From positions 186,001 to 250,000 of the forward strand of contig JAUIJL010000012.1 of assembly GCA_030431255.1 (NCBI GenBank): a DNA stretch of 64,000 nt. Reading direction: 5' to 3'. The position numbers and the translations under genes were made by a program. Origin of the DNA: Thermoanaerobaculia bacterium. Lineage in GTDB: Bacteria; Acidobacteriota; Thermoanaerobaculia; Multivoradales; J023. Numbering within the stretch: the first letter of the stretch is position 1; each line of letters begins with the position of its first letter. The notes below the pieces were generated by a model. That model was not told the origin of the DNA. It worked only from the letters and a program-made list of their open reading frames with translations, and did no database searches. Shown here one piece after another: positions 49,619 through 55,327 of this stretch.

Positions 49619-50245
49619 TCAGTTGATCGGTAACTCCAACCGGTCCGCGTAGCTCAGCAACCGAAGGGTGACCACATGCAGCGCTTCACCGCCACCCCCT
49701 TCGCTGACCATGCGTCCCTGGGCGAGGCCGATCAACGCTTCCAAATCGAAGTCTTTGTCACCCGACGGGCTCAATACCTCGTTCGGATCGCTCCACTCGC
49801 GTCCGCGGACCACCGCGTCGATCAATGCGTCGAGCTGCTGCTCCGCCACCAGGGCCGCCATCGGCGCTAGCGAAGCGACACTCCACGGATCCGTGGACTT
49901 CATCCGCTCGGGCAAGCCCGCGTCGTCACACAGCTGCCACAGCCGTCCAAGCTGACCTCTTGCTCCTTCCAGCTCCAGAACGGCCTTCGTTCCGGACCCA
50001 CCGGCATCTTCAAGCAGCTGGGCCAGGTCTGCTTCACTCGGTATCCAAGCTTCCAACACCGCCGCATGCAGTGACCCATGGCTCTGAAGTGTCTTCAGCA
50101 TCAGCCAGAACAACGCCCGAAACGACCGCGGGCGTTCCGAGCTGCACAATGCCGAGATCAGAGTCTCCAGCTGCTCCGGTTTTAGGGAATCCGCTCGATG
50201 CTTTGAATCCGAAATAAATCGGCTGAGCACAAATTTTCCGTCCAT
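49619..50245 (-). CDS. unrecognised protein, left flank of the short-peptide cassette
   Basis: 208 residues from the ATG at 50245, about 11 bases behind AGGGG; the frame is open further to 50416 but that part looks non-coding. It is helical and acidic, without signal peptide or membrane segment (RALFWLMLKTLQSHGSLHAAVLEAW; VLELEGARGQLGRLWQLCDDAGL; ALIGLAQGRMVSEGGGGEALHVV). No family is recognised. It diverges from the duplicated 19-codon ORFs, with the 20-bp palindrome at 50372 between them, so both sides could share a regulator. Confidence 0.55.
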   Translation of the reverse strand: MDGKFVLSRFISDSKHRADSLKPEQLETLISALCSSERPRSFRALFWLMLKTLQSHGSLHAAVLEAWIPSEADLAQLLEDAGGSGTKAVLELEGARGQLGRLWQLCDDAGLPERMKSTDPWSVASLAPMAALVAEQQLDALIDAVVRGREWSDPNEVLSPSGDKDFDLEALIGLAQGRMVSEGGGGEALHVVTLRLLSYADRLELPIN

Positions 50246-50395: not shown

Positions 50396-50514
50396 CGTCG
50401 GTGATCTGTAGGACACATCTCACTCACACGGAGGTCATATCCGAGACCTTCCTCACAACACAGAAAGGAGCTCCTCAATCGCAAAACCGCCGGGATCGGA
50501 TGGCACAGCCGACC

Positions 50515-50605: not shown

Positions 50606-50665
50606 GTGACTATTCAGAGCCAAATCAAAGCCGGTACCTACGGCATCTTTGTTCCTGAAGGCTGA
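50606..50665 (+). CDS. 19-codon peptide gene, cassette copy 1
   Basis: GTG start six bases behind GAAGGAG, then 19 codons and TGA. Peptide: MTIQSQIKAGTYGIFVPEG. It aligns with copy 2 without gaps; ten residues are identical (IQS, KAG, the central G, and the terminal PEG). No signal peptide or membrane segment is present. Synonymous codons differ between the copies (CAG/CAA, GGT/GGC, GAA/GAG) while the amino acids are kept, which argues for selection on the peptide. A hairpin (50683-50701) follows. No known peptide family is recognised; secreted signal, RiPP precursor or regulatory leader are all possible. Confidence 0.7.
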   Translation: MTIQSQIKAGTYGIFVPEG

Positions 50666-50682
50666 GTCTCGGAACGGGTTCG

Positions 50683-50701
50683 GGTATCCAATCCCGATAC
50701 C
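50683..50701 (+). other. hairpin after peptide copy 1
   Basis: GGTATC and GATACC are perfect 6-base arms with a 7-base loop, 18 bases after the stop. The sequence aligns with the hairpin after copy 2, so it belongs to the duplicated cassette. Confidence 0.6.
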
Positions 50702-50774
50702 TTGAGCCCCTCAGGGACCGCCCAAGACTAAAAACCGACCGAATCTCTAACTATGCCAAATGAAGGAGTAAGCA

Positions 50775-50834
50775 ATGATCATTCAAAGCCGAGTCAAAGC
50801 CGGCGCCCTGGGGCTTTGCATCCCTGAGGGTTGA
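50775..50834 (+). CDS. 19-codon peptide gene, cassette copy 2
   Basis: ATG start six bases behind GAAGGAG, the same spacing as copy 1, and again 19 codons and TGA. Peptide: MIIQSRVKAGALGLCIPEG. Differences from copy 1 are conservative (Q/R, I/V, I/L, V/I), apart from a cysteine at position 15 where copy 1 has phenylalanine. The start lies 169 bases after that of copy 1, and the bases before the Shine-Dalgarno site and after the stop also align, so the whole cassette is a tandem duplication that has since diverged. Confidence 0.7.
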   Translation: MIIQSRVKAGALGLCIPEG

Positions 50835-50849
50835 ATCCCAAGCTCAAAT

Positions 50850-50874
50850 CGGGGTATCAGACCTTGATGCCCCG
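50850..50874 (+). other. hairpin after peptide copy 2, overlapping the TPR gene end
   Basis: CGGGGTATCA pairs with TGATGCCCCG (10 bp, one T-G) around a 5-base loop, 15 bases after the stop. The right arm encodes the last codons of the convergent TPR gene on the other strand. It can end both transcripts, though no T-run is present. Confidence 0.6.
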
Positions 50875-51888
50875 AACCTCACGGTCCAAACCCACAAACG
50901 CTCGCCTCGCCCGATAAGCTGAAAGTATGCTCATTTCTGATTGAAGCCCAAGAGCCCTTGCAAGCTCAACTGCCGCGTCACACTCCGACGCTGCGCGGGC
51001 AGAATCGGCCATAGCATCATGGACCACCGCCAGATCAACGCTGACTAGTAGAGCGTCGCGCAAATAGCAATCCCCACCAACCTCATAGAAACGATCTCTT
51101 ACTTTTTCCAGCTGCCTAACCGCCTGGCGGTGAGATCCCAAACGGCCGTTGATTTGGCCCTCTATCCAGTCCAGGTAAATCCAACCTGTAGAGCGATAGC
51201 GACCGCTCCCCGTTCCCCTCAGCTGTCGCTTTACGGTGTCGATCAAGTTATAGGCAGCTCTGAGATCCTCGGTGCTTCCTGTCCCCGCGAGCAGCGCGTG
51301 TGCGACACTTTGAACCCCACTTATGAACCACCGCTGATCCTTCTTGCAATCCAGAAGCGTCAAACCGAGTCCTGCATCATCAGCGCTCTTTTTGTAGTCT
51401 CCCTTGAGCCCATAGATCTTTGAGCGGACTATAAAAGAGCAGCCGAGAGCCGAGCCCTGCAACATCTCGAACGACCGATTGATCGCCATCAGAGCGTCAT
51501 CGAATTGCAGCTCCATCAGATTGAGCACCGCTTTACGTTGTAACACCCCTCCGCGCACCTCATCGGCAATCGGCATCGCCAACGCCCGCTTATAGGCATC
51601 CTGGGCCTTGTCATAGCGGCCGTTTCGTCGATAGGAGCTACCTAGGATATCCAACGCTTGTCCCTGAGCATCTATCGACAGATGAAGGCTGAATTCATAG
51701 AGCAGCAACGCAGCCTGGAGACCCACCTGCGGGGATTGCTCGTAAAGCTCCTTGCATCGATCCGCGAGCAGCTCGAACGCCTCCTCGTTCCTGAACGACT
51801 CCCGCTCCACGATCTTGTGAATGTCCGTCACCGACGCCCCTCGAATGCTCCGGAGCATCCATTCACGGGATACGGATTTCCGCGCCAT
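50857..51888 (-). CDS. TPR-repeat protein convergent with the short peptides
   Basis: 343 residues, ATG six bases behind GGAGG. Residues 1-60 are basic and helical (SVSREWMLRSIRGASVTDIHKIVE), without a clear helix-turn-helix. From about 60 to 330 helical pairs of TPR type run on (QALDILGSSYRRNGRYDKAQDAYKRAL; RKAVLNLMELQFDDALMAINRSFEML; GWIYLDWIEGQINGRLGSHRQAVRQLEKV). No signal peptide. Base composition is visibly less GC-rich than in the flanking housekeeping genes, suggesting transfer. Peptide receptors of the RRNPP type are TPR proteins, so binding of the adjacent peptides is an attractive guess, without direct support. Confidence 0.65.
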   Translation of the reverse strand: MARKSVSREWMLRSIRGASVTDIHKIVERESFRNEEAFELLADRCKELYEQSPQVGLQAALLLYEFSLHLSIDAQGQALDILGSSYRRNGRYDKAQDAYKRALAMPIADEVRGGVLQRKAVLNLMELQFDDALMAINRSFEMLQGSALGCSFIVRSKIYGLKGDYKKSADDAGLGLTLLDCKKDQRWFISGVQSVAHALLAGTGSTEDLRAAYNLIDTVKRQLRGTGSGRYRSTGWIYLDWIEGQINGRLGSHRQAVRQLEKVRDRFYEVGGDCYLRDALLVSVDLAVVHDAMADSARAASECDAAVELARALGLQSEMSILSAYRARRAFVGLDREVRGIKV

Positions 51889-52268: not shown

Positions 52269-52358
52269 TGGCGGAGGGAGTGGGATTCGAACCCACGGAC
52301 CACGTTAATGGTCAACGGTTTTCAAGACCGTCGCTTTCGGCCGCTCAGCCATCCCTCC
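52269..52358 (-). tRNA. tRNA-Ser (anticodon UGA)
   Basis: Ninety bases including an encoded CCA. Acceptor arms GGAGGGA and TCCCTCC pair fully; the D-arm reads GGCTGAGCGGCC; the anticodon stem ACGGT/ACCGT encloses CTTGAAA with anticodon TGA; a long variable arm (GACCATTAACGTGGTC) marks class II; the T-arm is GTGGGTTCGAATCCCAC. It lies 48 bases behind serS on the same strand. Confidence 0.96.

Positions 52359-52406: not shown

Positions 52407-55327
<2,921 letters not shown>

Follow-up and report, generated by a model that had tools for sequence, protein, structure and literature searches.

A tandem pair of 19-codon genes beside a TPR gene suggests an undescribed peptide-signalling system outside Firmicutes

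The peptide genes and their neighbors

Within the window, by which we mean the whole 64,000-nucleotide stretch of Thermoanaerobaculia DNA analysed here, two ORFs of 19 codons each, P1 and P2, are repeated with a period of 169 bp (Table 1). Each start codon lies 6 nt behind the same GAAGGAG motif, and all of these elements were recovered where the initial annotation had placed them. A residue identity of 10/19 had also been reported; we counted 11 of 19 matching residues with the start residue included and 10 of 18 without it. The hairpin said to follow each ORF proved strong after P2 and imperfect after P1, where a shorter stretch scored alone gave a z value of -0.5. Neither hairpin carries a T-run, and a search around P1 and P2 revealed neither a sigma-70-like promoter nor a canonical terminator. 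The sole Rfam match nearby was a tRNA gene (window positions 52272-52358, minus strand), which adjoins a seryl-tRNA-synthetase-like ORF at 52407-53873.

Table 1. Positions of the peptide genes, their signals, and the adjoining genes within the window
Feature	Coordinates	Strand	Remarks
Shine-Dalgarno GAAGGAG of P1	50593..50599	+	From sequence
P1, 19-codon ORF, MTIQSQIKAGTYGIFVPEG	50606..50665	+	GTG start; family profile E value 8.4e-4 in own genome
Imperfect hairpin 3' of P1	50666..50718	+	z -3.5, mononucleotide shuffles
Shine-Dalgarno GAAGGAG of P2	50762..50768	+	From sequence
P2, 19-codon ORF, MIIQSRVKAGALGLCIPEG	50775..50834	+	ATG start; family profile E value 1.0e-5 in own genome
Hairpin 3' of P2, 11-bp stem	50849..50875	+	z -3.8 (z -5.8 in other run); overlaps 3' end of convergent TPR gene
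TPR protein, 343 aa, putative peptide receptor	50857..51888	-	Pfam TPR; convergent with P1/P2; AlphaFold2 TPR superhelix
Partner protein, 208 aa from ATG at 50245	49619..50245	-	Divergent; longer GTG start at 50416 possible

The two peptide genes differ mostly at third codon positions: 13, 14, and 8 of 18 codons match at positions 1, 2, and 3, respectively, and the NG86 method gave a dN of 0.27 and a dS of 2.55. When the same 19 base changes were placed randomly between P1 and P2, at least 10 residues were kept with P = 0.02. Taken alone, this value is only suggestive of selection on the peptide. The decisive evidence against chance is the existence of family copies outside the window, which are described below.

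The unit is larger than the initial annotation had recognized, as it includes a convergent TPR gene, the end of which lies 22 bp from P2, and a divergent partner gene. The AlphaFold2 model of the TPR protein had a pLDDT of 74 and was good or confident over residues 1 to 270. Among its best matches to solved structures were Rap-pheromone entries (4gyo, Z 20.1; 8rte, Z 19.9). These were tied with LGN and APPBP2, and the match therefore points to a peptide-binding type of fold and not to RRNPP membership. A phmmer search of the TPR protein against the PDB returned generic TPR proteins only. The partner protein matched no Pfam or NCBIfam model and its family is unnamed. Two partner subfamilies, collected from different starting sequences, aligned as profiles with 99.3% probability over 72 columns. 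The fold predicted from the single partner sequence was too poor for use (pLDDT 41).

The 19-residue peptide family and its linkage to TPR genes

Diverged paralogues of the TPR protein are encoded elsewhere in this genome and by its relatives, and the peptide family was discovered by scanning the loci of these paralogues for short ORFs preceded by a Shine-Dalgarno motif. Beside most of them, 19-mers of the P1/P2 pattern were found; in one case two such peptides, MKVKTDVLSGAYGGVLPTG and MKTTTSISSGIAGGMVPTG, flank a single TPR gene on both sides. A search for related loci with the window TPR protein itself as the query gave no result. BLAST with one peptide found the two window copies and nothing more, and a family profile then revealed seven further copies in the same genome. 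P1 and P2 are thus not an isolated duplication; this genome and its relatives contain many further instances of the unit.

Whole-genome profile searches placed the family, with the motif Mx[VI]x[TS]x[VI]x[AS]G......PxG, in the genome of the window and in two relatives (9 matches at E ≤ 0.05 in the former, 12 in G397, and 13 in G399). No profile match was obtained in the four remaining genomes of the taxonomic family. Full-length 19-mers were found neither elsewhere in the order nor in a sample of 396 genomes of the phylum, where no match outside the own genome fell below an E value of 0.0019 and the remaining matches were at the expected noise level or were partial matches to a wider superfamily. 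The counts given below refer to the 32 gene copies in the loci that were fetched; about 13 peptides from the genome-wide search are absent from the seed alignment. The peptides matched no Pfam or NCBIfam model, in agreement with the earlier statement that they belong to no recognized family, and searches of open-licence papers turned up no description of the peptides, their motif, or acidobacterial TPR-peptide systems. Since the peptide genes are very short and match no library, standard annotation will probably overlook them.

Translation signals recur throughout the family: a Shine-Dalgarno-like motif precedes 30 of the 32 copies. A hairpin with a z value below -2 (mononucleotide shuffles) follows 25 of 31. 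Purifying selection is evident between G397 and G399, whose closest orthologues among the cassettes gave dN/dS ratios of 0.09, 0.27, and 0.13. Together with the low match at third codon positions, these ratios bear out the proposal that selection acts on the peptide while synonymous codons vary. The initial annotation had named a lack of copies, or copies free of selection, as grounds for abandoning this proposal. Such an objection fails because profile-detected copies exist outside the window, both elsewhere in its genome and in related ones, and show selection.

Linkage between peptide and TPR gene is tight. Of the 32 family peptides, 29 have a gene matching the same TPR profile within 200 bp, and about 6% of random positions in the same loci lie near a TPR gene, a background inflated by the choice of loci. 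A member of the partner family lies within 2.5 kb of 20 of the 32. Some TPR-partner loci (L117, L118, and L091) and one TPR locus (L116) contain no recognizable peptide. In loci L095 (7423-7896) and L101 (3451-3924), an XRE-type HTH-like gene, possibly a regulator, overlaps the 3' end of the cassette TPR gene.

Gene order also bears on whether the peptide acts in cis, as a uORF or attenuator whose translation regulates the neighboring gene through the hairpin. In about half of the cassettes the peptide gene is upstream of and codirectional with the TPR gene, so that a short ORF and a hairpin lie directly 5' of it, as such a leader would require. However, the two genes converge in the window and in about ten other loci, and L082 has a second peptide gene downstream of its TPR gene. 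Codons vary while the amino acid sequence is kept, which likewise argues against a cis-acting role. In view of these gene orders we reject a cis-acting leader as a general account of the peptides and consider it highly unlikely.

It seems similarly improbable that the peptides are small toxins, whether of a toxin-antitoxin pair or of an anti-phage unit, for which the TPR or partner protein would serve as antitoxin or sensor. The cassettes are compact, multicopy, and patchily distributed among relatives, as such units could be. However, the peptides are not transmembrane-like (mean GRAVY, 0.26), and none of the PADLOC defence models matches the TPR or partner protein.

Several paralogous cassettes with differing tails coexist in the genome of the window. 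Tail divergence correlated with TPR divergence (Mantel r = 0.48, p = 2e-4) more strongly than leader divergence did (r = 0.29). The stronger correlation of the tail fits a pairing of ligand and receptor and could also be obtained from shared descent alone.

The wider micropeptide superfamily and its exporter

The 19-mers are part of a wider superfamily that is defined by its first ten residues, MK[VI][KQ]Tx[VI]KAG, followed by a variable tail. A strict DNA pattern for this leader, searched over approximately 85,000 species, returned 70 loci, most of which contain Shine-Dalgarno-preceded micro-ORFs with the same leader and different tails, often in tandem. They are distributed over Acidobacteriota, Chloroflexota, Myxococcota and other deltaproteobacterial groups, Planctomycetota, and Gammaproteobacteria. 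As a control, a looser pattern read backwards gave no matches in 72 genomes. No Pfam or NCBIfam model fits the superfamily. We left out a 75-aa RplX-like protein of Akkermansiaceae (L165, L196, L214, and L217), which matches the pattern and is another protein, as well as matches at L155, L161, L164, and L181, which are due to chance or other proteins.

The tails take various forms. A tandem array of six 17-mers of the form MK[VI]KTxVKAGGxxxxxG is found in Planctomycetota (L202, 259-1525). The tails NGDSGGPMT and NGDSGGPLT at L104 (440-505) and L108 (8538-8603) resemble the active-site motif of trypsin-like serine proteases. On contig C42 of the window's own genome (L087, 8997-9431), four tandem 16-mers end in FPW(I/V)(D/N), with no TPR gene nearby, and a comparable tail, MKTQTQIRAGLFPWIDAP, is seen at L231, in a different family of the order. 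Longer relatives of up to 157 aa with internal repeats of the VKAG....NHN.T type are present at L191, L199, L215, L193, and L152. Larger ORFs, encoding HlyD-type adaptors and a P-type ATPase, lie beside superfamily peptides at L168 (5806-7047), L193 (6331-7560), and L189 (from 6941). These ORFs appear to open with a similar KxKTxxKAG, as though the leader could be passed from protein to protein as a tag.

Several superfamily loci encode a peptidase-bearing ABC protein, a second ABC protein, and an HlyD adaptor; in G407 and G239 the order is peptide-HlyD-ABC1-ABC2 in a row. In the genome of the window, an exporter of this kind is encoded in trans, outside the cassettes, on contig C50. It consists of ABC1 with a C39 peptidase domain (Pfam, 2.9e-18), ABC2, and HlyD, and its ABC proteins are approximately 41 to 49% identical to those of the superfamily loci. 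Relatives of the C50 ABC subunits were found at 13 of 69 superfamily loci. Among 72 genomes of the order, the exporter was present in all nine that bear a peptide and in 7 of the 63 others (Fisher p = 1.3e-7, which is optimistic because the genomes are not phylogenetically independent). The nine comprise genomes with pattern matches and the genome of the window, added by the family profile; G161, which had a weak profile match, was left out because no motif micro-ORF was found there. The four peptide-free genomes of the same taxonomic family likewise lack the exporter.

The association with an exporter weighs on the main rival to signalling, in which the peptide stays inside the cell as a regulatory subunit or inhibitor of the TPR protein, forming a stoichiometric toggle rather than a means of communication. 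The tight peptide-TPR linkage, the lack of a Sec-like hydrophobic segment in the peptide, and the fact that the cassettes do not encode the exporter would all be expected of such a toggle. Against it stand the genome-level association with the C39 exporter and the physical linkage of that exporter to superfamily members, as well as the combination of a conserved leader with a variable tail, which is typical of exported or processed peptides. On balance we regard an intracellular toggle as unlikely.

A possible mechanism and comparison with known systems

Of the functions first suggested for the peptides (signal, RiPP precursor, or leader), a signal is now favored. P1 and P2 may be two variants of a ribosomal peptide ligand for the convergent TPR protein, leader-tagged, exported by the C39 system, and probably trimmed; we give this proposal about an even chance of being right. 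The first ten residues (MxIQSxxKAG) would constitute the leader common to the cross-phylum superfamily and would be recognized by the C39-peptidase ABC exporter. Trimming, probably near the invariant G10, would release the nine-residue tails TYGIFVPEG and ALGLCIPEG. The tail, or the uncut peptide, would then bind the TPR superhelix and change how it engages a target, which may be the partner protein encoded divergently. Paralogous cassettes that differ in their tails are what one would expect of parallel, insulated peptide-receptor channels. The sequences show the genes and their translation signals, purifying selection, the linkage of peptide and TPR gene, the partner gene, and the association with the exporter; that the peptides are produced, exported, cut, and bound by the TPR protein to give an output we infer.

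Several observations run counter to signalling. The ligands of TPR proteins are diverse, and the fold match extends to proteins other than Rap. The exporter is encoded in trans, and a secreted tail would have to get back into a Gram-negative-type cell to meet a cytosolic receptor. Seven exporter-positive genomes have no detected peptide, the four tandem 16-mers on C42 have no TPR gene near them, and some TPR-partner loci are peptide-free. With regard to trimming, [AS]G differs from the canonical GG/GA/GS cleavage site.

In Firmicutes and their phages, peptides paired with TPR receptors are familiar from quorum sensing, and our findings suggest an undescribed peptide-signalling system outside the Firmicutes. 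More tentatively, we propose a class of micropeptides of approximately 14 to 50 residues, with a ten-residue MKVKTxVKAG-type leader, a variable message tail, dedicated C39-ABC/HlyD export, and an adjacent TPR-bearing or kinase-type reader, spread over at least five phyla. The window would represent its TPR-receptor branch, multiplied in one acidobacterial family. If true, peptide communication would reach into Acidobacteriota, a dominant yet poorly understood phylum, in the form of a multiplied set that has a leader, an exporter, and a third component of its own, and the superfamily hints at a leader-exporter part common to several phyla. Each tail would predict its receptor, and this pairing allows direct tests.

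The closest parallel is found in the RRNPP(A) systems (Rap-Phr, Rgg-SHP, NprR-NprX, and AimR), in which a small peptide gene likewise lies beside a gene for a 250- to 500-aa TPR protein (PMC10075063, PMC11343458). RRNPP_detector looks for a TPR receptor of that size adjoining a propeptide of 10 to 100 aa (PMC10075063). The window receptor, at 343 aa with peptide-binding-type TPRs (Pfam, AlphaFold2), is of matching size and fold, and its family shows the required adjacency in 29 of 32 cases. Further similarities are the many paralogous pairs per genome, the variable C-terminal tail, the occasional duplication of pheromones, and the superposition of the window TPR model on Rap-pheromone structures. 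In contrast, RRNPP(A) systems have been described from Firmicutes and their mobile elements, with propeptides that are mostly 50 to 120 aa and Sec exported, the usual route (PMC11343458), whereas the peptides of the window are only 19 aa long and start with a polar leader of ten residues; their system has a C39-ABC exporter and, as a third component, a divergent gene, and no HTH was recognized in it. The 19-residue peptides carry no Sec-type signal and no hydrophobic segment of sufficient length, judged from their sequence and GRAVY values. By analogy, the system would work like RRNPP quorum sensing; we do not file it under RRNPP because it has no Sec-type signal and no demonstrated ancestry and belongs to a different phylum.

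The exporter recalls the NHLP/NHLM systems (TIGR03796, TIGR03797, and TIGR03794), which also combine a peptidase-bearing ABC protein, a second ABC protein, and an HlyD-type adaptor with short leader-bearing peptides. However, exporters of superfamily loci scored 97 to 199 bits against equivalog cut-offs of 709 to 853, and the C50 exporter scored 148 and 112 bits against TIGR03796 and TIGR03797, below their cut-offs. The exporter is related to the NHLP system, although far below its cut-offs. The superfamily leader also differs in being ten residues long rather than long and nitrile-hydratase-like; no NCBIfam or Pfam match to a nitrile-hydratase- or Nif11-like leader was obtained in the peptides, and no maturase was recognized.

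The distant likeness to NHLP export bears on a further alternative, that of an exported bacteriocin or RiPP precursor for which the TPR and partner proteins provide regulation or immunity. Many genomes with tandem copies and variable tails, and the presence of a cyclophane RiPP TPR protein among the matches of L219, would agree with it. Nevertheless, the listed neighbors of the loci include no recognized modification enzyme, the tails are nine residues with a conserved PxG, and the peptides come each with a separate TPR gene instead of sharing one biosynthetic cluster. We therefore hold a bacteriocin or RiPP role to be improbable.

The FxSxx-COOH and Haa (cyclophane RiPP) systems, in which radical SAM enzymes carry out the modification, likewise associate short peptide genes with large TPR proteins. 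They differ in that no radical SAM modification was recognized here and the peptide sequences appear unrelated. Superfamily members are found near TPR-bearing regulators at L219 (AfsR/SARP-like), at L152, L158, L209, and L215 (TPR or Ser/Thr-kinase-type), and in Minicystis (L188 and L218). The L219 regulator matches the TPR models of both FxSxx-COOH and Haa, far below cut-off. In the Chloroflexota loci L219 (3445-4408) and L220 (3587-3851), three to five tandem superfamily peptides are encoded divergently from large proteins with TPR hits.
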